A program made the translations under genes and the position numbers. The notes beneath the pieces were generated by a model. The model saw only the letters and a list, made by a program, of their open reading frames with translations, ran no database searches and had not been told where the DNA came from. From an uncultured Bacteroidia bacterium (GTDB lineage: Bacteria > Bacteroidota > Bacteroidia > Bacteroidales > Prolixibacteraceae), in the NCBI GenBank assembly GCA_903918045.1, contig CAIXCY010000273.1, positions 62,001 to 126,000 on the forward strand: a stretch of 64,000 nucleotides of DNA, read 5' to 3'. Positions 30,901 through 63,618 of this stretch are shown piece by piece (positions within the stretch are counted from its first letter, which is position 1; each line of letters opens with the position of its first letter).

Positions 30901-31038
30901 ATATTGGCGGTATAACTAAATGGGGAGGGGCAGAATCAAAATTTAGTCCGGGTCCCACTTGAAGTGGGGCTCGGACTATTTAAGCTTACGTCCGGGCGCG
31001 ACTCCAAGTCGCACCCGGACTAAATAAGCTATTTTATA
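30901..31038 (+). repeat. Direct repeat copy 2 with GTCCGGG palindromes (right border of accessory island)
   Basis: Second copy of the element at 27391-27556, same orientation. Contains two hairpins: GTCCGGGTCCCACTT paired with AGTGGGGCTCGGAC (about 30946-30976), and GTCCGGGCGCGACT paired with AGTCGCACCCGGAC (about 30990-31020). The tail overlaps the end of metA, whose stop codon is within it. It may also act as the metA terminator. Together with the 21-base repeat it accounts for the 30700-31028 gap. Confidence 0.75.
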
Positions 31039-31946
31039 TCATGCAAATCATACGGGGTCTCCTGGTAGACATAATAGTTGAGCCAGTTCAGAAAAAGGAG
31101 GTTGGCATGTGATCGCCAGCTGAGAACGGGATCTTTGGATGAGTCGTTATCTTTGTAGTAGTTTCGTGGAAGGTCAATCGGCAGCCCTTTTTCAAAATCC
31201 CGTTTATATTCCCGGTTTAAAGTTCCCCTTGAATATTCAGGATGACCGGTTATAAATAACTGTTTCCCCTGGTTGGCCAACACCATGTGAACACCCGCTT
31301 CTTTCGATTGTGAAATCAATTCAATTTCAGGTACTTTGAGGATATCCTCTGCCAGAATCTGCGTGTGTCGCGAGTGGGGAGCCCTGAAAACATCATCAAA
31401 ACCGCGGAAAATGGGAAGCTTGGCCTCTGAATGGGAATGATCAAATATCCCGAACATTTTCTTTTCAAGCGGATATTTCTCAACTCCGTAAAAGTGGTGA
31501 AGCCCTGCCTGCGCCGCCCAGCAAATAAACATTGTGGAAGTGACGTGGTGTTTGGTCCAGTCAAAAATCTCACAAATATCTCCCCAGTAATCAACCTCCT
31601 CAAAAGGGAGATGCTCAACCGGTGCTCCGGTAATGATCATCCCATCATATTTGTTCTCCCTGATCTCCGGAAAGGTGTGGTAAAACGTGTTTAAATGATC
31701 TTTTGAAGTGTTTTTTGAAATATGCCCCTCAATCTGCAGAAAATCGATCTCAATCTGTATCGGAGAATTGGAGAGTAACCGGAGTAAATCGGTCTCTGTT
31801 GCAATTTTCAACGGCATAAGATTGAGAATAATGATCTTTAACGGACGAATATCCTGATGCGCTGCCTGAGTTTCATTCATCACAAAAATATTCTCCTTAC
31901 GCAGAAGATCGATAGCAGGAAGACCGTCGGGAAGATTTAAAGGCAT
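31029..31946 (-). CDS. metA: Homoserine O-acetyltransferase (MetA/HTS family)
   Basis: 305 residues. Activates homoserine for sulfhydrylation. Family motifs are intact: NLMPLKIATETDLLRLLSNSP, ITGAPVE, the nucleophile Cys142 in MFICWAAQAG, and GHPEYSRGTL. Position 111 is Glu (GAPVEHLPF); in this family Glu111 goes with acetyl-CoA and Gly111 with succinyl-CoA, so acetyltransfer is expected. This fits the O-acetylhomoserine-using metY just upstream in the same direction. A hairpin between the two may reduce read-through. Confidence 0.95.
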   Translation of the reverse strand: MPLNLPDGLPAIDLLRKENIFVMNETQAAHQDIRPLKIIILNLMPLKIATETDLLRLLSNSPIQIEIDFLQIEGHISKNTSKDHLNTFYHTFPEIRENKYDGMIITGAPVEHLPFEEVDYWGDICEIFDWTKHHVTSTMFICWAAQAGLHHFYGVEKYPLEKKMFGIFDHSHSEAKLPIFRGFDDVFRAPHSRHTQILAEDILKVPEIELISQSKEAGVHMVLANQGKQLFITGHPEYSRGTLNREYKRDFEKGLPIDLPRNYYKDNDSSKDPVLSWRSHANLLFLNWLNYYVYQETPYDLHDIK

Positions 31947-31986
31947 AATTAATATTTTTAAAATTATAATATTTGAAACATTGGTT

Positions 31987-32016
31987 TGTAGAGACGCGTT
32001 TAACCGCGTCTCTACA
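31987..32016. terminator. Hairpin between metY and metA
   Basis: A perfect 12-base stem, TGTAGAGACGCG (31987-31998) with CGCGTCTCTACA (32005-32016), loop TTTAAC. Belongs to the same GAGACGCG family as 4072-4095. There is no strong T tract on the minus strand, so it may attenuate transcription instead of ending it. Confidence 0.6.
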
Positions 32017-32030
32017 TTTGCCGAAATTAA

Positions 32031-33344
<1,314 letters not shown>

Positions 33345-33411
33345 TTAAATTGTTTATCCTATTTCTAATTTATATTTATTTCAATTTCCTATGTATTTCT
33401 GTTCTAATTAA

Positions 33412-34806
33412 CTATCCTAACGGATTAATTGTTTCAAAAAATTCATGATGAATTGCCCTGACCGCCTCAATTCGGTCGTTTGCTCCGACCAGGAAGTAGC
33501 TCACAAGAGGAGAAGCGCCGGAACAGCTCATCAAAACGTTAATTCCATTTTTAGCCAGTGCTGTAAAGATCCGGGCTGCAACTCCGTAATTTTCAGCAAT
33601 TCCATTCCCAACAGCGGCCACGACTGAGATATCCTCGATGATCTGAACCCTGCCAACAACCGAAAGCTCGATGGCACTTACAAGGGCATAAGCCGTACTG
33701 AGGTCCTTTTTAGCAATTAAAATATTAATCGAAATCTGTGAAGTGAGCACTGAACTGATGTTAATACCTGCCAGGTGAAGTGCTGATGTAACTTTAGCAA
33801 GGATGCCGGGCTTTGCACCAACACCCGATCCCTTTAGTTTCAGAATTCCAAAATCATCACTGTATGTAACGCTTTTGACGATACCTTTTGATACTATCTT
33901 TTCAGCACTGACTACCGACAGCGGTTTATTTACATCCGATTCGCCATAAATATTGAAAATCCGGATTGGAATATGTGGAGCAGCTAAAGGTTCAACGGTT
34001 CGGGGATGGAGAATCTTTGCGCCAAAATAGGCAAGTTCGGCCGCCTCATTATAGGTTAACCGTTCAATTTGTACGGGGTTTTCGACCGTTTTAGGGTCTG
34101 CACTTAAAAATCCATTCACATCTTTCCAGATATCCAGAGATGGTGCTCCGATACACCGGGCTATTGCTGCAGCAGAATAATCAGAACCTCCCCTTCCAAA
34201 GAGCGTCGTTTTTCCATCAGCAGACAATCCATAGAAACCTGGTACCACATAAATCAAGTCTTCAGAAAGCGCTTCCCTTACCTTTGACGTAGATCTTACA
34301 AAATCAACAGAAGCGGTGCCAAATTCTCCATCGGTGATGAGCCCAATCGATTCGGGAAAGGCGACTTTTGTATCAATACCCGCATTTTGAAGAATTCCTG
34401 CAAGAAACACTGCAGATATGCGTTCTCCATAAGCAAGCACATGATCCTCAAGTGCAGGAGAAGCATCTCCTGTAAGTGCGATGCCATGAAGATATCTTTC
34501 AAGTTCATCGAGCAGAATTGTAATTTCCGTTAAAATAAGATTTGACTTTTCCTCATTGGCTATATGTAACGCAAGAGTCTCCCTTTTAAGATTCAATAAA
34601 TACGTGGTGGTATTCTTAGCTACATGTTCATCGTAACGTGCCTTATCAAGTGCCTCAACCAGGTAATTAGTCACGCCGTAAAAGGCAGATACAACAATTA
34701 CGACAGGTTTTCCATAATTTTTTACAACCTGAATAATACGTGCGATATCCTCCTTGCATTTAAGGTTGGATCCGCCGAATTTAACGACAGCTTTAGGCAT
34801 GATCAT
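33412..34806 (-). CDS. lysC: Aspartate kinase (monofunctional, LysC type)
   Basis: 464 residues; ATG 34800 is an equally good start. Phosphorylates aspartate, the entry to Lys, Thr and Met synthesis. KFGGSNL near the N-terminus is the kinase motif, LFGRGGSDYSAAAIA is the substrate region, and two ACT domains occupy about 310-460 (SVTYSDDFGILKLKG, SSVLTSQISINILIAKKDL). No homoserine dehydrogenase domain is fused. It heads the kinase-metY-metA group. The ACT domains imply feedback control, probably by Lys or Met. Confidence 0.94.
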   Translation of the reverse strand: MIMPKAVVKFGGSNLKCKEDIARIIQVVKNYGKPVVIVVSAFYGVTNYLVEALDKARYDEHVAKNTTTYLLNLKRETLALHIANEEKSNLILTEITILLDELERYLHGIALTGDASPALEDHVLAYGERISAVFLAGILQNAGIDTKVAFPESIGLITDGEFGTASVDFVRSTSKVREALSEDLIYVVPGFYGLSADGKTTLFGRGGSDYSAAAIARCIGAPSLDIWKDVNGFLSADPKTVENPVQIERLTYNEAAELAYFGAKILHPRTVEPLAAPHIPIRIFNIYGESDVNKPLSVVSAEKIVSKGIVKSVTYSDDFGILKLKGSGVGAKPGILAKVTSALHLAGINISSVLTSQISINILIAKKDLSTAYALVSAIELSVVGRVQIIEDISVVAAVGNGIAENYGVAARIFTALAKNGINVLMSCSGASPLVSYFLVGANDRIEAVRAIHHEFFETINPLG

Positions 34807-56236: not shown

Positions 56237-56452
56237 ATGGGAAGCATACTGGTAAACGGTAAGACTCAGGAGGTAGAATTACCGATCTCACTGATAGATT
56301 TAATCAAAAAAAATAATGTCGAACAACCTGAAATGGTCTCCATACAGGTAAATGGCGAATTTGTGGACCGAAATAATTTTGATTCCACACAGATCAATGC
56401 CAATGATGAGGTTGACTTCCTCTATTTCATGGGAGGAGGCTCCCGATGTTGA
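56237..56452 (+). CDS. ThiS/MoaD-like sulfur carrier protein with masked C-terminus (HcyS-like)
   Basis: 71 residues of ubiquitin-like fold. Carries sulfur as a C-terminal thiocarboxylate. It has the ThiS pattern: VNGKTQEVELPISLIDLIKKN, then VSIQVNGEFVDR, and INANDEVDFLYFMGGG. Unlike ThiS and MoaD, it does not end at Gly-Gly but continues Ser-Arg-Cys after Gly66-68, so a protease must expose the Gly terminus before adenylation. A JAMM protease ends the same operon. The 3' end overlaps the next gene's ATG by seven bases. A thiamine role is possible but no thi gene is near. Confidence 0.88.
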   Translation: MGSILVNGKTQEVELPISLIDLIKKNNVEQPEMVSIQVNGEFVDRNNFDSTQINANDEVDFLYFMGGGSRC

Positions 56453-57687
56453 AACCCAACGGGTTCACAACCAGAATAATACATACACCTTATGCCAGGG
56501 AGGATGCCCACCATGCCTTGCATCAGCCTATTTATAGCAATGCTGCATTTGATTTTGAATCAGCTGAGCAAATGGAGCTTGCCTTTCAGGGGCGGCTTCC
56601 GGTTCATGCCTATTCCCGAATTTCAAATCCAACTGTAGAAAATTTTGAACTCCGCATCAAACAGATTACCGGTGCGCTGAATGTGACGGCCTTAAGTTCC
56701 GGAATGGCCGCAGTTTCGAATGCAATCTTTATGCTCGCTTCAACGGGATCCAATATCATTGCTTCAAAACATCTGTTTGGAAATACTTACGTGTTCTTCG
56801 AATCGACGATCAAAGATTTCGGTATTGAAACCCGATTCTGTGATCTGACAAATAATGAGGAAGTAAAGGCAAACATAGACGAGAATACAGTAGCGATTTT
56901 TGTTGAGACGATCACCAATCCGCAACTTGAGGTGGTTGACCTTAAAAGTCTGTCGGATACTGCTCATGCGCTTAACGTACCGTTTATTGCAGATTCCACA
57001 CTTACACCCCCGAATGTTTTCAGTGCCAAAGATTTTGGTATTGACATTGAGATTATCTCAAGTACCAAATGCATCTCTGGTGGCGGCACCAGTGTCGGTG
57101 GACTGATAGTCGATTATGGCACTTTTAACTGGAGTAAATCGAAAAAACTGGCTTCTTACGCCAAGCGATTCGGCCCTTATGCCTTTAACTACAAACTAAG
57201 ACGGGAAATTTTCCGGAATCTGGGTGCCTGCCTCTCCCCTTTTGCCGCCTTTCTGCAGAGTCTGGGTCTTGAAACCCTGCAACTTCGTTTTGAGAAAGCT
57301 GCAAATAATTGTCGTGAACTCGCCGAATTCCTGATTTCGTTACCGGAAATAAAACAGGTTAATTACCCTGGAATAAAAGGTACCGAATTTTATGAGATCA
57401 GCGAAAAGCAGTTTGGGAAATTTCCAGGTGCTATGCTCACCTTCGATTTTTCGACCAGAGAAGAGTGTTTTAACTTTATGAACAAGCTGGAACTCATCCG
57501 AAGAGCCACCAATGTTTACGATAATAAAACCTTGATTCTTCATCCGGCCTCAACGATCTATTGTGATTTTGATCAAGAGAAAAAGGAAAGTCTTCATGTG
57601 AGTGACACGATGTTGCGCCTCTCTTTAGGGATAGAAGACATTGAAGATCTCAAAAACGATTTGATTCAGGCAATCAGTAAATTATAA
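56446..57687 (+). CDS. metY: MetY-type PLP enzyme of the thiocarboxylate operon
   Basis: 413 residues. Cys/Met-metabolism PLP fold with Lys208 in SSTKCISGGGTSVGG, YSRISNPTVENFE and SSGMAAVSNAIF. Shorter than and clearly diverged from the metY at 32031. In the Wolinella pathway, a MetY of this sort takes sulfur from a carrier-protein thiocarboxylate to make homocysteine. The start overlaps the carrier gene, so the two proteins are translationally coupled. Activity on O-acetylhomoserine is inferred, with O-succinylhomoserine or cysteine synthesis as alternatives. Confidence 0.9.
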   Translation: MLKPNGFTTRIIHTPYAREDAHHALHQPIYSNAAFDFESAEQMELAFQGRLPVHAYSRISNPTVENFELRIKQITGALNVTALSSGMAAVSNAIFMLASTGSNIIASKHLFGNTYVFFESTIKDFGIETRFCDLTNNEEVKANIDENTVAIFVETITNPQLEVVDLKSLSDTAHALNVPFIADSTLTPPNVFSAKDFGIDIEIISSTKCISGGGTSVGGLIVDYGTFNWSKSKKLASYAKRFGPYAFNYKLRREIFRNLGACLSPFAAFLQSLGLETLQLRFEKAANNCRELAEFLISLPEIKQVNYPGIKGTEFYEISEKQFGKFPGAMLTFDFSTREECFNFMNKLELIRRATNVYDNKTLILHPASTIYCDFDQEKKESLHVSDTMLRLSLGIEDIEDLKNDLIQAISKL

Positions 57688-57693
57688 CAAGCG

Positions 57694-58503
57694 ATGGATT
57701 TCAACGAAGATCAAATACAACGGTATAGCCGCCATATCCTGCTTCAGGATGTTGGTGTCGAGGGTCAGGAAAAAATAAGTAACGGAAAAGTGCTGATTAT
57801 CGGTGCAGGTGGCCTGGGCGCTCCGGTGGCGCTTTACCTTGCTGCTGCCGGCGTTGGTACAATAGGGATCATTGATGGTGATGTTGTCGATTTGTCGAAT
57901 CTTCAACGACAGGTGATCCATTTCACACCGGATGTCAACAAATCAAAGGTTCAGTCGGCAAAGGAGAAAATAAATCTTTTGAATCCGGATGTCAACGTCA
58001 TAACCTATTATGATCTCCTTACGGCCAGCAATGCGCTGGAGATTATAAAAGATTACGATTTCATCGTCGACGGCACGGATAATTTCCCGGTGAAATTTCT
58101 GATCAACGATGCCTGTGTAAAGGCAGGAAAACCATTCTCTCATGGGGGAATTCTCCGTTTTGATGGTCAGACCATTACCGTTCTTCCGGGGAGTGCCTGT
58201 TACCGGTGTGTTTTTCATGCACCTCCACCGGCCAATGCGGTTCCAACCTGTTCACAGGCCGGAGTATTGGGTGCAATCGCTGGTATGTTAGGGACTATTC
58301 AGGCTGCCGAAGTATTAAAATATCTTACAGGGGTGGGCGACTTACTCACAAACAGGCTGCTCACCTTCAATGCCAAAACTATGGATTTTAGAACTATCAA
58401 GGTAAAACATAATTCGAAATGTCAGGTTTGCGGAGATCATCCCACAATCACGGAACTTATCGATTACGAACAGGCAACATGTGAAATTAAAAGCAATCAT
58501 TAA
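57694..58503 (+). CDS. MoeB/ThiF-family E1-like adenylyltransferase (HcyF-like)
   Basis: 269 residues, the length of MoeB rather than the longer rhodanese fusion. Adenylates the C-terminal Gly of a ThiS/MoaD carrier. Rossmann motif VLIIGAGGLGAP (33-44), the DGDVVDLSNLQRQ strand, VDGTDNFPVKFLIND, and zinc Cys pairs at 169/172 and 243/246. Cys186 in PTCSQAGVLG could form a carrier persulfide or thioester. Six bases after metY, four before the DsrE-like gene. Confidence 0.94.
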   Translation: MDFNEDQIQRYSRHILLQDVGVEGQEKISNGKVLIIGAGGLGAPVALYLAAAGVGTIGIIDGDVVDLSNLQRQVIHFTPDVNKSKVQSAKEKINLLNPDVNVITYYDLLTASNALEIIKDYDFIVDGTDNFPVKFLINDACVKAGKPFSHGGILRFDGQTITVLPGSACYRCVFHAPPPANAVPTCSQAGVLGAIAGMLGTIQAAEVLKYLTGVGDLLTNRLLTFNAKTMDFRTIKVKHNSKCQVCGDHPTITELIDYEQATCEIKSNH

Positions 58504-58506
58504 ATA

Positions 58507-59019
58507 ATGGATACAACAGAAATAACATCATTGATCCAGCCGAAGGAACCTAAAAAACTATCGATCATTAGTTTCAGCGGGGACTTTGATAAGCTGGTCG
58601 CAACATTTACGTTAGCTACCGGAGCCGCGGCAACAGGTTACGAAGTAAATATCTTCTTTACTTTTTGGGGTCTTGATGCCATCAAGGAGAAAAAGGGACG
58701 TGCCTTTGTTGGTAAAGGGTTCCTTGGAAAGATTTTTGGATTTCTAATGGGCGGTTTGCATAGCGCACCTGTAAGCAGGTTAAATTTCTGTGGAATAAGT
58801 CCGAAGATCTTCCGTTACCTTATGCGCAAGAAAAATGTAGCCACCCTCGAAGAATTGGTTGAGGCTGCCAAGGCGCTTGAAGTAAATATGTATGCCTGCG
58901 AAATGGCGATGCACATCCTGGGTCTTCAAAAAAGTGATTTCATTCATGAAGTGAAGGATGTACTTGGAGTAGCTACATTCCTCGATATTTCTGAAGGGGG
59001 AAGAACTTTATTCATTTAA
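58507..59019 (+). CDS. DsrE/DsrF/DrsH-like protein
   Basis: 170 residues. DsrE-like fold: LSIISFSGDFDKLVATFTLATGAAATGYEVNIFFTFWGLDA, GGLHSAPVSRLNFCGIS, and YACEMAMHILGL with a Cys at the position often used for sulfur relay. Family members pass persulfide sulfur between partners such as TusA. Placed between the E1 and TusA genes, it fits a sulfur donor for carrier thiocarboxylation. Also resembles the DsrE-like proteins near sulfurtransferases in anaerobes. Cytosolic. Confidence 0.9.
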   Translation: MDTTEITSLIQPKEPKKLSIISFSGDFDKLVATFTLATGAAATGYEVNIFFTFWGLDAIKEKKGRAFVGKGFLGKIFGFLMGGLHSAPVSRLNFCGISPKIFRYLMRKKNVATLEELVEAAKALEVNMYACEMAMHILGLQKSDFIHEVKDVLGVATFLDISEGGRTLFI

Positions 59020-59020
59020 A

Positions 59021-59092
59021 GCTGCAGGCAGCTGGCAACTAGCGGCTGGCAACTGGCCAGAAGCAAGCAGCCAGTAGCAAGCAGCCAGTATC
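59021..59092 (+). repeat. GCTGGC-type repeat, both arms side by side
   Basis: First half reads GGCAGCTGGCAACTAGCGGC then TGGCAACTGGC; second half CAAGCAGCCAGTAGCAAGCA then GCCAGTA, which is the inverted form. Placed between the DsrE-like stop and TusA-like start, so a transcript would carry an imperfect hairpin inside the operon. Confidence 0.6.
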
Positions 59093-59119
59093 AATTCAAC
59101 ACAAACAATCTTAATTATC

Positions 59120-59344
59120 ATGTCAACAGTCAAATTAGATATCACCAAAGAGCATTGTCCGATGACCTTTGTGAAAACAAAAATCGCCCTTTCAAAACTA
59201 CAGACAGGAGAAATCCTTGAAGTATTGCTGGTCGAAGGTGAGCCGCTTCAGAACGTACCTAAGAGTTCAAGAGAACAAGGTTATAAGGTTCTTGAAGTGT
59301 CACATGTTGAGGGATTAGTCCACAAGGTCCTTATCGAGAAATAA
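59120..59344 (+). CDS. TusA-family sulfur carrier protein
   Basis: 74 residues, the usual size. The acceptor Cys13 lies in the EHCPMTFVKTKIAL motif (Cys-Pro helix), followed by LQTGEILEVLLVEGEP and VLEVSHVEG. Carries persulfide sulfur from a cysteine desulfurase or DsrE to an acceptor. In this operon it probably feeds the E1/carrier pair. A 100-base gap with a palindromic repeat precedes it, so expression may differ from the upstream genes. Confidence 0.93.
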   Translation: MSTVKLDITKEHCPMTFVKTKIALSKLQTGEILEVLLVEGEPLQNVPKSSREQGYKVLEVSHVEGLVHKVLIEK

Positions 59345-59354
59345 CATTTGCAAC

Positions 59355-59753
59355 ATGCTCCGAATTTCACAGCAAATTATCGATCAGTTATTTGATCATG
59401 CAAAAAGCGGTTTGCCAGAAGAAGTATGCGGATATCTGGCAGGTATTGACAGAGAGGTGACTCGTCATTTTCAACTCACTAACATCGACCACAGCCCTGA
59501 ACATTTCTCGTTTGATCCTTCCGAACAGTTTCAGGTAGTAAGAGAGGTACGCAAAACCGGTGAAGTAATTCTTGCAAACTACCATAGTCATCCTGAGACG
59601 CCTGCAAGACCCTCGATTGAAGATATCAGGTTAGCATTTGATCCTGAGATCAGCTATGTCATTGTTTCGCTGGCGGCTGAATTACCAGATATAAAGTCAT
59701 TCCGGATTCGTAACGGGGAGGTAGAAAGGGAGGAAATTCAGCTGATTGACTAA
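59355..59753 (+). CDS. JAMM/Mov34 metalloprotease (HcyD/Mec+-like)
   Basis: 132 residues. The JAMM motif is complete: Glu22 or 23 in PEEVCGYLAG, then H77-x-H79-x7-S87-x2-D90 (HSHPETPARPSIED). Bacterial Mec+ and HcyD enzymes cut residues or a cysteine adduct from the end of a sulfur carrier; here the obvious substrate is the Ser-Arg-Cys tail of the carrier. Ten bases after the TusA-like gene. Its stop overlaps the end of the TonB receptor on the other strand by four bases. Confidence 0.93.
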   Translation: MLRISQQIIDQLFDHAKSGLPEEVCGYLAGIDREVTRHFQLTNIDHSPEHFSFDPSEQFQVVREVRKTGEVILANYHSHPETPARPSIEDIRLAFDPEISYVIVSLAAELPDIKSFRIRNGEVEREEIQLID

Positions 59754-62263
59754 TAGAATAATCGTAAAGAAATGCGGGGAGAGAACGGCACTGCCTGAGA
59801 ATAGATATTAAGTGTTGCCGATTGATTGACAGGAACTCTTTCAAAATTGGAATACCTTATATTTTTTGTATTAAACAGGTTCAAAATCGATACTCCCGAC
59901 TCACAGAGGACCTTTCCGACATTAAACCTGTAATTCACTGCGATATCCATTCGATGGTAGGATGTTGAGGTATAGGAGGAGTTCAGAACGGCACCCGTAT
60001 ATAATGGGAATCCTGTTCCATACACATAAATTGCAGAGAAATTAAAAGGTTTTACGTTGAATAAACCGGCTAGCTTTAATTCATGCCGCTGGTCCTGTGG
60101 AGCCGGAAGAAATTCATTTCTGGGGAAATATGAAAATTTCTCTTCCGTTTTGCTGAGTGTATAGGAGATCCATGCAGAATGTTCCCCAAAATCTCTTCTT
60201 ATAAAAAAATCAAGCCCGTAGCTTCTTCCGTTTCCCTTATAAATCAAATCCTTATAGTTCTGATTTGCGTTAATGAATCGGGTTAAACCATCACTGTTTT
60301 TATAGTATGCTTCAAGACTTACTGTATAATCATTCTTATGATAAGAGCTGCCAATTACATAATGTGTTGCCTTAAGAACAGGAATCTGAACATTGTCACA
60401 TGAGGTCCAAATATAACGATAATTGCCCTGATTATCAATGACAGAGCTTTTGGAAATAAACTGATTATAGATACCCCATGCGGCATTAAGTCTGACAAAT
60501 TCTGAAAGTTTAATACTTGATGATATGCGGGGCTGGATATAGACCCTATTGAGACTGAATGGAAAATCGGTCCGAATTCCGAATTTCAATTCTATCTCAC
60601 CTGGAAGGGTTACATGATCCTGAACATATCCGTTAATTCTTGTTACCTGAGTCTTCAGATCTGTTTGATTAAATCCGGCGGAGTCAGTTCGTAAGCCAAC
60701 TTCGTTACGATCAAAGCCAAACCCTGTTTCAAGTTTATGCGACTGCGACAGCCTGATGAAATTGTCAACTTTTCCCGAAAACTCTGCCATCTTATTAAAT
60801 ATCTGATTATTGACGATCTGGTCAAAGACATTTAGTTGCCGTTGTATACTCTGAATATTTGAAAGTTCAGTTTCAAGTGAAGACCACGATGCTGTAAGAT
60901 TGGAGATATTCCCATTTTTCCAGGTGCGGCCATAGAAGGCTGAAGCCCCAAATTGGTAATTATTTTCAGCATCAATCTTAAAGAGGCCGTTATATGCAGA
61001 GTACGGAGTGATTGTATATCTGAAACGGTCTTCCCCTCCCAACAGACTTAGGTTAAACAGGGCACCTTTGTCATTTCGGGTGGTAAATCTCAAATTGGCA
61101 TCCCGATAGTTATAATCGGGTAGTACGGTATAATCAATTTTTGCGGCTTTAGTATCACCTGGTAAAATTGCATTTTCATTGTTAGCCGGGTATGTATCTT
61201 TTCCTTTATATAAATTATAATAGGTCTGGCGAAATGACATTACAAGAGAACTATTTTTCCACAAGGGAACTTCAGCCATTCCATTTACAGTAACATTGTT
61301 AATATTGAGGCTGAAAGAGGGTTTTACCATACTTCCGGTCTTACCCGAAATATTTACAATACCTCCAATCCGCCCTCCATAGCTTGCATCATACCCTCCT
61401 TTAAAGACCTCAATTTCCTTGGCAATCAAAGGGTTCACCGCATCGATATCATCATTAAAACTTTTAAGTCCCCAGAGCGTAAACCCGTCAAAAAGTACCT
61501 GGCTATGTCCTTCATAGGATCCCCAGATTATCAAACCATTAGATTGCTCACTTGCTGCAAGAATGCCTGGCATCAGCCTAAGCAGCGTAAATACTGAATT
61601 ATCACCGCTTCCAGGGAGGTATTTTGCAATTTGATGGTTAACTTTAATGACTCCTGCCCGGTTTCCGATGTGAGTTGCCTTATCAAGTGATCTGTTTTTA
61701 ATCACAATTTCGTGCAACCCGATAAATGAAGGGATTAGGTTTAACTGATGATGATAACCGGCGATGACAACAGTATCAAGGATAAAATATCCAAGATGAG
61801 ACACTTTTATATGAAAAATACTGTCACCGTTACTTTGATATGAGAAGCTCCCTTTAAGATCCGATATCAGAACCCGGCCATCCACAAAGAGCTGAGAATA
61901 TGGAAGAGGCTCATTCGATCGTGCTTCAGAGACTTGTCCAAACAACAGGTAGTTTACCTTAGTAACCTCCCTTACTTTAGGAAGAATCATGTAAATATCA
62001 CCCTGCTTTCTGTATGATAATGGAAGATTGTTGATTAATGATCGGATTGCCTCATCGGGAGTATCCCATAAATGATTGATCGATAGCTTATAATGCGAAA
62101 GAAGAAGGTCGTTAAAGGAAAACTGTAACTGATATTTACTGCGTAAACCAATCAGAATCTTATTTAAGGGGGTATTATGAGCAACAATTTCTACCTGTTG
62201 GGAAAAACAGGATAAAGTAGTCATTAAAAATAAAAGCGTTAAAAAAATAAAACGTTGCCTCAC
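59750..62263 (-). CDS. TonB-dependent receptor with STN and carboxypeptidase-like domains
   Basis: 837 residues. Signal peptide (1-22), STN secretin/TonB short N-terminal domain (about 24-95, VEIVAHNTPLNKILIGLRSKY), a CarboxypepD-like domain (about 105-185), a plug (about 200-315, with FDGFTLWGLKSFNDDIDAVNPLIAKEIEVFKGGYDASYGGRIGGIVNISG) and a barrel to the end, which finishes ISLRLFY with a terminal Tyr. STN domains signal to FecR anti-sigma proteins, and the next two genes upstream are FecR and FecI. No SusD partner is seen, so the ligand may be a siderophore or other small molecule. Confidence 0.94.
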   Translation of the reverse strand: MRQRFIFLTLLFLMTTLSCFSQQVEIVAHNTPLNKILIGLRSKYQLQFSFNDLLLSHYKLSINHLWDTPDEAIRSLINNLPLSYRKQGDIYMILPKVREVTKVNYLLFGQVSEARSNEPLPYSQLFVDGRVLISDLKGSFSYQSNGDSIFHIKVSHLGYFILDTVVIAGYHHQLNLIPSFIGLHEIVIKNRSLDKATHIGNRAGVIKVNHQIAKYLPGSGDNSVFTLLRLMPGILAASEQSNGLIIWGSYEGHSQVLFDGFTLWGLKSFNDDIDAVNPLIAKEIEVFKGGYDASYGGRIGGIVNISGKTGSMVKPSFSLNINNVTVNGMAEVPLWKNSSLVMSFRQTYYNLYKGKDTYPANNENAILPGDTKAAKIDYTVLPDYNYRDANLRFTTRNDKGALFNLSLLGGEDRFRYTITPYSAYNGLFKIDAENNYQFGASAFYGRTWKNGNISNLTASWSSLETELSNIQSIQRQLNVFDQIVNNQIFNKMAEFSGKVDNFIRLSQSHKLETGFGFDRNEVGLRTDSAGFNQTDLKTQVTRINGYVQDHVTLPGEIELKFGIRTDFPFSLNRVYIQPRISSSIKLSEFVRLNAAWGIYNQFISKSSVIDNQGNYRYIWTSCDNVQIPVLKATHYVIGSSYHKNDYTVSLEAYYKNSDGLTRFINANQNYKDLIYKGNGRSYGLDFFIRRDFGEHSAWISYTLSKTEEKFSYFPRNEFLPAPQDQRHELKLAGLFNVKPFNFSAIYVYGTGFPLYTGAVLNSSYTSTSYHRMDIAVNYRFNVGKVLCESGVSILNLFNTKNIRYSNFERVPVNQSATLNIYSQAVPFSPRISLRLFY

Positions 62264-62275
62264 ACTCCGCTGGTA

Positions 62276-63133
62276 TTAGTTAACCAGAAATTCGGTATCT
62301 GATTTGGCATCAAATTTAATCCCTAATGAGGTACAAACCAAATCGAGCACCTCTTTTCCTGAGAGAGATCTGGAAAAATTTCCGGTATAGGTTAAACCGG
62401 GATCTGCCTGGTAATGAATTTTAATACCATATTGACGTTCAACTTCCTCTAAGACAGAAACAATTGGCGATCCTGTAAAAACAAACATATTATCGCGCCA
62501 TGATTTTAATGTCCTGGCATCTGCATCCTGAGCAAAGCGCAGAAAGCCATCTTTATTTATAAATGCCTTTTCGTTAGGATTCAGCAGTACCCTTTCATTA
62601 TTCAACATCGAAACAACCCTTACTTTTCCGGTAAAACAAGTTACATTGTATTCATTATTTCTGGAGAAAATATTAAAACTTGTCCCTAATACGGAGGTCT
62701 CCCCCAATTTGGATACCACCTTAAAGTCTTTACCCTTATTAACTAAAAAATATCCTTCGCCGTTAAGTTTAACGGTACGGGAAATATTAAACCAGTAGGG
62801 GTGAAAATTTATTTCCGATTTGGCATTTAATTGAACTTTTGATCCATCAGGAAGCAGGAATGAGATTTGTTGACCATTTGGAGTAAAAACGGATTTAGTA
62901 TAGAACCGGAGAAATCCGGTCACGCTAAGCAATAAAAGCAGTGAGGCAGCTGCAGCAATTCTGAAAAAGGAGTTTAATGAAATGATCCGGTGATTCACTT
63001 TGGGTACATCGAGTTGATATACGAGGTTTTCCCATACTTTTTCCTTTGAGACCGAATACTCCAATTCGATCCCGGGAAACTGGTCAACCCTATTTATGGC
63101 ACCTAAATTCATATTTTTATTTATTTTTTTCAT
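62276..63133 (-). CDS. FecR-family anti-sigma / sigma regulator
   Basis: 285 residues. A short cytosolic part precedes a membrane helix at about 55-75 (FFRIAAAASLLLLLSVTGFL). The FecR domain follows (GQQISFLLPDGSKVQLNAKSEINF, GEGYFLVNKGKDFKV), and the C-terminal domain that meets the receptor STN contains SVLEEVERQYGIKIHY. The start overlaps the sigma stop as TAATG. It should transmit receptor occupancy to the sigma factor. Confidence 0.94.
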   Translation of the reverse strand: MKKINKNMNLGAINRVDQFPGIELEYSVSKEKVWENLVYQLDVPKVNHRIISLNSFFRIAAAASLLLLLSVTGFLRFYTKSVFTPNGQQISFLLPDGSKVQLNAKSEINFHPYWFNISRTVKLNGEGYFLVNKGKDFKVVSKLGETSVLGTSFNIFSRNNEYNVTCFTGKVRVVSMLNNERVLLNPNEKAFINKDGFLRFAQDADARTLKSWRDNMFVFTGSPIVSVLEEVERQYGIKIHYQADPGLTYTGNFSRSLSGKEVLDLVCTSLGIKFDAKSDTEFLVN

Positions 63134-63618
63134 TACTCTCCTACCGCATTTCTTAAATATTGCAATGCATTTTTCATTCGTTTTTCAACCGCTTTAACAC
63201 TCAAGCCAAGTGTTTCGGCGATTTCACTATATTTCATACCATCCATTCGACTCAAAAGGAATACTGTTCGCTGTTTTTCAGGCAGATTTTCAAGTGCCCG
63301 CTCATAATTTTGCAATAACTCTTTATATCGCATTAAATCATGAGGACTTTCGCTATACTGTTCCTCAACCACCCTTCCTTTGTACCTTAAAATCACGTTA
63401 CGCTTCCGAAGTTGCGTGATTAATAGATCACTGGCAATTTTATAAAGAAGCGCCTTCAGATTATCTGTAACAAGTTCCGAATTTTTCTCCCATAACCGAA
63501 TGAAGGTCTCCTGTGCCACATCAGTAGCGAGTTCCTGATCACCTGCCCGATAATAAATATAGTTTCGGACGTCGGTAAAATGGGTATCAAATATTTTTTT
63601 AAACTCCTCCCGTGTCAA
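63133..63618 (-). CDS. FecI-type ECF sigma factor
   Basis: 161 residues. Region 2: FKKIFDTHFTDVRNYIYYRAGDQELATDVAQETFIRLWEKN. Region 4: LPEKQRTVFLLSRMDGMKYSEIAETLGLSVKAVEKRMKNALQYLR. First gene of the sigma-FecR-receptor operon; expected to activate transcription of the receptor on ligand signal. Confidence 0.95.
   Translation of the reverse strand: MTREEFKKIFDTHFTDVRNYIYYRAGDQELATDVAQETFIRLWEKNSELVTDNLKALLYKIASDLLITQLRKRNVILRYKGRVVEEQYSESPHDLMRYKELLQNYERALENLPEKQRTVFLLSRMDGMKYSEIAETLGLSVKAVEKRMKNALQYLRNAVGE

Follow-up and report, generated by a model that had tools for sequence, protein, structure and literature searches.

Genes of the locus

The DNA analysed is a stretch of 64,000 nt (the window). 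Six open reading frames follow one another on its + strand in the order carrier, MetY-like enzyme, E1, DsrE-like protein, TusA-like protein and JAMM protease, and the best match of each passes the curated Pfam cut-off. The features are as follows (bit scores are against the Pfam family named):

56237..56452, + strand: ThiS/MoaD-like carrier (HcyS-like); ThiS, 43.5 bits; C-terminus FMGGG-SRC
56446..57687, + strand: MetY-like PLP enzyme of the 3RI6 type; Cys_Met_Meta_PP, 334 bits
57694..58503, + strand: E1 (HcyF-like) of the ThiF/MoeB family; ThiF, 273.9 bits
58507..59019, + strand: DsrE-like protein of the DrsE_2 family; DrsE_2, 136.9 bits
59021..59085, + strand: hairpin predicted between dsrE and tusA; -36.7 kcal/mol, z -3.64 relative to 200 shuffled sequences
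59120..59344, + strand: CPMT-type TusA-like protein (C13); TusA, 69.7 bits
59355..59753, + strand: JAMM/JAB metalloprotease (HcyD-like); Prok-JAB, 87.9 bits; E22 and HSHPETPARPSIED from residue 77

Consecutive genes are spaced by -7, +6, +3, +100 and +10 nt. A preliminary description of this DNA had six genes running in one direction with tiny gaps or overlaps; this is accurate for the direction and for four of the junctions, but not for dsrE-tusA, the sole wide gap. With its predicted hairpin, this 100-nt interval may make for weaker co-transcription. Promoter and terminator scans returned no more candidates than shuffled sequence (9 versus a mean of 10.5, and 3 versus 4.2, respectively), and a search for a riboswitch linking the operon to methionine found no Rfam family at gathering score within the window.

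Conservation of the arrangement was assessed in 61 genomes, the window's own and 60 relatives. JAMM matches of any strength occur in 22 of them; 14, the own genome included, have a strong match (at least 77 bits), and the other eight score 22-46 bits. The full six-gene set lies in the same order on one contig in 11 of the 14 strong-JAMM genomes (own included), which argues that the gene order is not due to chance. The operon is interrupted by contig ends in G016 and G004, where the visible genes are in order (TusA of G004 was not seen), while G046 has an operon lacking both DsrE and a stand-alone TusA. Altogether, the operon DsrE is present in 13 of the 14.

A probable thiocarboxylate core beside a conventional route

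The carrier ends with three residues (SRC) past GGG. Such an extension is found in 44 of 45 carriers of the scanned loci, the exception being L067, which has none. The carrier is the only match to PF02597 (ThiS/MoaD) in its own genome and, at 58.1 bits, exceeds the cut-off (37.45) of the thiamine ThiS model TIGR01683. However, this genome (98.8% complete) gives only a partial ThiG match below cut-off (21.4 bits) and no match to ThiC or MoaE. The carrier thus hardly serves thiamine or molybdopterin synthesis, and these roles were dropped. The preliminary description had counted a sole ThiS needed for thiamine against its own reading; the carrier is indeed the sole ThiS/MoaD match, but with ThiC, MoaE and any genuine ThiG missing from the matches in its genome the reading is not refuted.

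In the E1, ThiF is the only Pfam family found and there is no rhodanese domain. Residue C186 lines up with the NCRTAG cysteine of ThiF, and the seven cysteines of the protein are conserved in all 49 aligned E1 rows. The score against the MoeB subfamily model NF004281 (272.3 bits) exceeds the cut-off of 266; other MoeB models stay under theirs. The protease finds its best PDB match in 2KKS (131 bits); E22 and HSHP..S..D are taken by us to be its metal-binding motif. As for the MetY-like enzyme, the best PDB match is 3RI6 (456 bits; next, 292), which we take to be the Wolinella MetY of the thiocarboxylate pathway; K208 is presumably the PLP lysine, judging from the motif.

A second enzyme of the MetY family is encoded in the same window, next to MetA:

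31029..31946, - strand: MetA, homoserine O-acetyltransferase; NF047918 (MetA_acetyl), 484.9 bits, cut-off 460.5
32031..33332, - strand: canonical MetY, of the free-sulfide type by family; TIGR01326 (OAH sulfhydrylase), 670.8 bits, cut-off 495.1

This MetY is closest to 2CTZ (550 bits) and scores 240.6 bits with 3RI6. The proximity of the MetY-like enzyme to 3RI6, and its distance from the canonical MetY encoded nearby, support the thiocarboxylate reading. The metA-metY pair announced at 31-33 kb is therefore real, both families being over cut-off, and the suggestion of two coexisting homocysteine routes extends to relatives: all 13 genomes that carry the DsrE-type operon also encode a canonical MetY (78-100% identity). 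MetA would furnish O-acetylhomoserine for both routes.

A loop of MetY measures 34-35 aa in all 50 carrier-linked rows versus 49-52 aa in five canonical rows (the sixth row of the canonical group, L126, is a frame ending at a contig end). Among 29 orphan rows without E1, however, the loop is 35 aa in 20, 36 in two, 38 in four and 18 in three. The short loop thus marks a clade and was dropped as an indicator that a carrier is used. A point against the overall reading is that MetY is intermediate in two distant DsrE-containing operons (G248 and G134), at 40.8 and 41.6% to the MetY-like enzyme versus 39.7 and 39.6% to the canonical one.

Homocysteine synthesis by HcyS, HcyF, HcyD and MetY was reportedly described in Wolinella succinogenes by Krishnamoorthy and Begley in 2011. 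The preliminary description had recognized this logic in the operon, and the details bear it out: as reported for Wolinella, a tailed ThiS-like carrier, an E1 without rhodanese and a JAMM protease accompany a MetY near 3RI6. Judged by sequence, the core of the operon is this known pathway, and the operon very probably makes homocysteine from sulfur held on a small carrier protein. By homology, the JAMM protease would trim the SRC tail and expose GGG, E1 would adenylate the new C-terminus, and sulfur would displace AMP to yield the carrier thiocarboxylate; the MetY-like enzyme would then join the latter to O-acetylhomoserine, and the JAMM protease would finally free homocysteine. CysO-Mec-CysM is the actinobacterial system for cysteine synthesis. 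It shares with the window operon a carrier thiocarboxylate, a JAMM protease and a PLP enzyme (compare row 4d of PMC1779556); the PLP enzyme of the window is, however, MetY-like and not a cysteine synthase.

DsrE and two types of TusA

The window operon differs from the Wolinella system by the presence of DsrE and a CPMT TusA; in addition, sulfite reductase and sulfate genes were not seen in it, CysJI being encoded elsewhere. The operon is close to neighbourhood 4e of Burroughs, Iyer and Aravind (2006; PMC1779556), which combines ThiS/MoaD, JAB, an E1 without rhodanese and O-acetylhomoserine sulfhydrylase with an invariably present SirA (= TusA). Unlike neighbourhood 4e as given there, the operon has no sulfate-assimilation genes beside it. 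DsrE does not occur in the available text of PMC1779556 (0 occurrences). Hence, of the two genes initially viewed as additions, DsrE qualifies but TusA does not, already being constant in such neighbourhoods: the new element relative to known neighbourhoods is DsrE.

The best PDB sequence for this DsrE is 2QS7 (100 bits; SSO1126, a DsrE2B); 3PNX follows with 77.5 bits and DsrE3A (3MC3) with 24.5. Fold comparison gives Z 19.6 for 3PNX and 18.6 for 2QS7. The DsrE2 equivalog NF047629 is matched at 75.7 bits, under the cut-off of 210. One cysteine, C131, is invariant across 13 aligned sequences, in contrast to the Cys-x7-Cys of DsrE3A. The 61 genomes contain 39 DrsE_2 places, 13 in the operon and 26 elsewhere. 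A profile of the operon DsrE gave at most 130.5 bits on the 17 of these 26 that were scored (the other nine were not), versus 203-350 bits in the scanned operons, the value of 203 belonging to a sequence that ends at a contig end. Across 395 genomes of the window's phylum, in many of which only nine candidates were scored, this type (>260 bits; next, 136) was found in three, each time in such an operon. Plasmids searched for this DsrE at E 1e-20 yielded nothing.

CPxP is the active-site motif of classical TusA. The TusA of the window has CPMT instead (EHCPMT in the DsrE-linked loci), unlike the other TusAs that lie beside DsrE in relatives, which have CPGP. Of 44 scanned loci with E1 and JAMM, DsrE is found in 16, all 16 with a CPMT TusA, and in none of the 27 lacking this TusA. 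After phylogenetic correction, the link is represented by four contrasts on supported branches, three agreeing and one showing no difference (p 0.25), a number with which significance cannot be reached; the association could reflect a few shared events. DsrE requires six changes on the MetY tree, a quick search with 19 of 77 forks open and an outgroup branch of 4.13, used only for this count and for one orphan group.

A second TusA type, CP-x-N, accompanies sulfite reductase, either fused or adjacent. Many related operons, both from other phyla and from some of the relatives, include sulfite reductase with its own CP-x-N TusA; sulfite reductase or sulfate genes lie in the cluster in relatives L027, L028, L183 and L184. 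Within the window's genus, sulfite reductase is on the operon contig in only one of 11 genomes. The window's genome lacks the sulfite reductase/CP-x-N arm, and its NIR_SIR gene is on another contig (C130, the operon being on C273). This genome encodes CysI (782.5 bits), CysJ (703.5 bits) and PAPS_reduct proteins of CysH/CysD size. CysJI makes free sulfide available and, together with the PAPS_reduct proteins, could allow E1 to be fed by it directly. The preliminary description had suggested persulfide, and not free sulfide, as the incoming form of sulfur; this would be one possibility beside free sulfide. Two of the 13 DsrE-type genomes (G012 and G024) gave no NIR_SIR match; these drafts may be incomplete, and both contain PAPS_reduct proteins, which weakens them as proof of a variant without sulfite.

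Searches of the open-licence PMC literature found nothing joining TusA, DsrE and thiocarboxylate, nor TusA, DsrE, sulfite reductase and methionine biosynthesis; TusA, DsrE and O-acetylhomoserine together returned environmental surveys only, judging by title. NirA-rhodanese fusions are described in Halobacteria, no TusA being reported in the available part of the source (PMC11237513).

Proposed delivery of sulfur to the carrier

On gene association only, the most likely source of sulfur is a dedicated DsrE-TusA(CPMT) pair: sulfur would pass from C13 of TusA to C186 of E1 and the carrier, and not come from free sulfide alone. The absence of rhodanese from E1 and the retention of the ThiF-type cysteine support such a relay. 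We consider the reading as a whole, a thiocarboxylate homocysteine route supplied by this pair, to be reasonably probable. According to PMC4175335, Metallosphaera DsrE3A binds TusA and transfers thiosulfate to it, so that passage of sulfur from a DsrE to a TusA has an example. The same source reports that DsrE2B, the nearest studied DsrE, was inert to all six sulfur compounds tried and takes no thiosulfate, an inertness that speaks against the relay, as does the failure of DsrE3A and TusA of that organism to react with sulfide, glutathione persulfide or polysulfide. The window operon resembles the dsrE3A-dsrE2B-tusA genes of Metallosphaera cuprina described there in having a probably DsrE2B-like sequence and fold with TusA adjoining, but is biosynthetic and not associated with Hdr or sulfur oxidation.

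The inertness of DsrE2B also suits a simpler scheme, as in Wolinella, that we regard as appreciably less probable: free sulfide from CysJI would attack the E1-bound carrier adenylate, and DsrE and TusA would be accessory (holding, sensing or protecting) and bring no sulfur to the carrier. The CysI and CysJ genes favour this scheme, as does the fact that no DsrE was seen in 28 of the 44 scanned operons, so that the chemistry does not require DsrE. The donor in the Wolinella work is, reportedly, bisulfide from Sir. The scheme is harder to reconcile with the distinct TusA that accompanies DsrE in 16 of 16 scanned operons and, within the limits noted above, with G012 and G024. Alternatively, DsrE and TusA might feed the carrier with sulfur in another oxidation state (thiosulfate, polysulfide), the operon serving growth on such sulfur and metA-metY serving for sulfide. 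The coexistence of canonical MetY in the 13 genomes is in keeping with this division, and the Metallosphaera DsrE3A-TusA pair moves thiosulfonate, not persulfide (PMC4175335). We find it unlikely, as the DsrE of the operon is by sequence nearer to DsrE2B than to DsrE3A and has the single invariant cysteine, and the open reading frames at 53-63 kb, by reading and not by a family search of all, include no transporter, rhodanese or Hdr gene. Finally, the carrier might be a SAMP-like protein modifier, or serve another thio-product, with MetY in its neighbourhood by accident. Matches in that direction, the protease scoring 83.1 bits with the desampylase model (cut-off 130) and E1 scoring 317.9 bits with the SAMP-activating UbaA model (cut-off 450), are both under cut-off; the 7-nt overlap of the MetY-like and carrier genes, the E1 near 49 of 80 scanned MetY-like loci and the 3RI6-like nature of the enzyme make this very improbable.

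The dedicated DsrE-TusA supply can be extended, tentatively, to a chain in which sulfur travels from sulfite reductase through CP-x-N TusA, DsrE and CPMT TusA to E1 and the carrier, and so to homocysteine, at no point being free sulfide; in this view the genus of the window would have retained the second half with another donor, for example a cysteine desulfurase.

These data bear on the way in which carrier thiocarboxylates for amino-acid synthesis receive their sulfur, be it as free sulfide or on proteins. The two TusA types are divided by partner, DsrE or sulfite reductase, at times within one operon, a split that opens this question to direct tests on small soluble proteins. Relatives provide natural variants, with both arms, one arm or neither TusA in the operon.

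The operon and its probable homocysteine pathway

Six ORFs between positions 56237 and 59753 of the window, all running in the same direction on the plus strand, encode proteins of the ThiS, Cys/Met PLP, ThiF, DrsE_2, TusA and Prok-JAB families. Each exceeds its Pfam cut-off, and the six-gene operon of the preliminary description thus stands. The window is part of contig C273 of its source genome (5.36 Mb; estimated completeness 98.8%, estimated contamination 3.99%). In this genome, Prok-JAB, DrsE_2 and TusA have one match each at E 0.001, all three inside the operon. A close Prolixibacteraceae relative (locus L047) has the same operon, with a MetY-like protein 92% identical. Genes reading as a TonB receptor, a FecR protein and a sigma factor lie 3' of the operon (59750-63618, minus strand). 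The dsrE-tusA gap, whose length differs between relatives, contains a predicted stable structure built of short repeats:

59021-59085, predicted hairpin in the dsrE-tusA gap (-36.7 kcal/mol, z -3.64)

Within the window, a 20-mer from this hairpin, with up to 3 mismatches allowed, has no match besides its own site and an overlapping copy; a 14-mer pattern is present in 5 of 184 loci, belonging to the source genome and to genome G011.

Among solved sequences, the MetY-like protein is closest to 3RI6 (456 bits, far above the runner-up at 292), which we take to be the MetY of the Wolinella protein-thiocarboxylate route, its database name being only O-acetylhomoserine sulfhydrylase. The canonical MetY encoded near 32 kb has 2CTZ as its top match (550 bits) and scores 240.6 bits against 3RI6. 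With the NCBIfam O-acetylhomoserine sulfhydrylase model (cut-off 495.1), the canonical copy reaches 670.8 and the MetY-like protein 367, below the cut-off. K208, the JAMM motif and the E1 cysteines, to which we assign their presumed functional roles, are all present, and the carrier ends in FMGGG-SRC. A genome search for other ThiS and thiamine genes had been proposed as a means of learning whether this carrier is spare. It is the sole PF02597 match; ThiG gives at best a partial match under the cut-off (21.4 bits), and neither ThiC nor MoaE has a match in this genome (8 genomes searched for each). Among 41 genomes searched, 3 have a real ThiG (>350 bits). With no second PF02597 match and no real ThiG, ThiC or MoaE found in the genome, the carrier should be free for the homocysteine pathway. 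With this and the affinity to 3RI6, thiocarboxylate homocysteine synthesis by the HcyS-HcyF-HcyD-MetY logic, as originally put forward, is very likely.

Sulfur supply and the possible role of DsrE and TusA

Contig C130 of the same genome encodes CysI (782.5 bits) and CysJ (703.5 bits), adjoining ORFs that read like siroheme genes, and the genome has three proteins of the PAPS_reduct family whose lengths fit CysH or CysD, a split that we assume from length. Sulfide is therefore on hand for the canonical MetA-MetY route, and the same sulfide could feed E1. The genes for metA, canonical metY and aspartate kinase form one row (31029-34806, minus strand), at which no Rfam riboswitch was found.

Operon DsrE has as its nearest solved sequence 2QS7 (100 bits), named DsrE2B (PMC4175335); 3MC3 is of the DsrE3A type (PMC4175335). 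Its AlphaFold model (mean pLDDT 75.4) resembles 3PNX (Z 19.6, 154 residues, 3.2 A), 2QS7 (Z 18.6, 133 residues, 3.2 A) and 3MC3 (Z 16.7, 114 residues, 2.7 A). Sulfur transfer by this protein is therefore plausible, but what is reported of its best-studied relative argues against small molecules loading it directly. Overall, DsrE-TusA probably delivers the sulfur, possibly as persulfide.

Burroughs et al. 2006 (PMC1779556) described a gene neighbourhood in which ThiS, JAB and rhodanese-less E1 go with O-acetylhomoserine sulfhydrylase, with sulfite reductase and, without exception, with SirA (TusA), along with a ThiS-sulfite reductase fusion in two species. DsrE, present in the window operon, does not occur in that text. 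The literature searched yielded no DsrE cassette, CPMT/CPxN split or sulfite reductase-TusA fusion in a homocysteine-operon setting.

Nearby genomes and distant loci

JAMM has a strong match (at least 77 bits) in 14 of 61 nearby genomes, the source genome included; eight genomes at 22-46 bits were left out of the operon comparison. Eleven of the 14 have all six genes in order on a single contig, and contig ends cut the operon in G016 and G004. G046 has ThiS-E1-JAMM-MetY only, with a sulfite reductase bearing a C-terminal TusA on a different contig; no canonical MetY was found there at E 1e-100, this genome being only 84% complete. All 13 genomes with DsrE encode a canonical MetY with at least 78% identity, which bears out a second, conventional route beside the operon. 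Ten of these 13 have a sulfite-reductase gene (567-599 aa frame) away from the operon, and three, two of them among the ten, have a sulfite reductase-TusA fusion. Such a fusion comes directly after JAMM in G009 and G021 and lies on a different contig in G013. NIR_SIR had no match in G012 and G024. Of the 13, 11 belong to the window's genus, and among these a sulfite reductase sits on the operon contig in G009 alone. Seventeen of the 26 DrsE_2 places outside these operons were scored with the operon-DsrE profile, none above 130.5 bits.

A collection of 84,980 species was scanned with the MetY-like alignment and two peptide patterns, and 80 of 93 confirmed loci were kept. This sample is biased to near relatives, and 11 of its loci are contigs already in the nearby set, so that the two sets are not additive. 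E1 lies near the MetY-like gene in 49 loci and is missing from 31, in a few of these because the contig ends. The E1-less proteins (L073, L074, L076, L080, L083-L085 and others) fall in the same clade and come chiefly from relatives of Dysgonomonas, Rikenella and Prevotella; one supported group takes in 25 of the 31. These proteins may have gone back to using free sulfide, or may work with a carrier encoded far away.

E1 and JAMM occur together in 44 loci, accompanied by TusA in 38, DsrE in 16, sulfite reductase in 28 and a sulfite reductase-TusA fusion in 19. The count of 28, from our own profile, is an undercount, since two fusion proteins (L068 11241-12620, L081 11033-12316) were classed as JAMM. 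Each joins a JAMM protease to a sulfite reductase of the siroheme/4Fe-4S type and has a CP-x-N TusA as its neighbour. TusA was not found in six of the 44 loci: L087 and L120, where the contig ends within the reductase, L064, with a short reductase frame, L056 (identical to G046), L100 and L116. Beside the operon of L064 (Omnitrophota), frame 232-1104 encodes an ABC-transporter ATPase domain followed at the C-terminus by a TusA domain. L067 has the sole carrier among 45 that ends exactly at GGG, its JAMM gene nonetheless being present.

TusA types and the DsrE cassette

In the scanned loci, 17 TusA proteins have the motif EHCPMT; DsrE accompanies 16 of these, the exception being L055. Another 28 TusA proteins are of the CP-x-N type, 19 as fusions with sulfite reductase and 9 as separate proteins near JAMM or reductase. 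Scored for DsrE, CPMT and CPxN, the 44 loci divide into 10 with the first two, 6 with all three, 1 with both TusA types alone, 21 with CPxN alone and 6 with none, L059 being scored without CPxN because its contig breaks off within the reductase. Seven loci thus have the two TusA types together. Where TusA is next to or fused with DsrE outside these operons, it is of the CPGP type in the relatives examined. In relatives without strong JAMM, L145 (3525-5987) and L149 (849-3332) encode long proteins that unite a DsrE domain with a CPGP TusA motif, as do further frames of 813-860 aa.

In one sample of 395 phylum genomes, with at most 9 candidates scored per genome, operon-type DsrE was found in three (316.7, 278.6 and 267.5 bits; next 136), every one in such an operon. 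Two of these three, G248 and G134, have sulfite reductase, CPxN TusA, carrier, MetY, E1, DsrE, CPMT TusA and JAMM in one stretch, interrupted in G248 by two additional genes, with a gene in front that reads as siroheme-type. Their MetY proteins are intermediate, matching the MetY-like protein of the window at 40.8 and 41.6% identity (342 and 343 bits) and canonical MetY at 39.7 and 39.6% (280 and 288 bits). On the MetY tree, DsrE requires 6 changes, so that, if that tree holds, the DsrE cassette would have been gained or lost several times.
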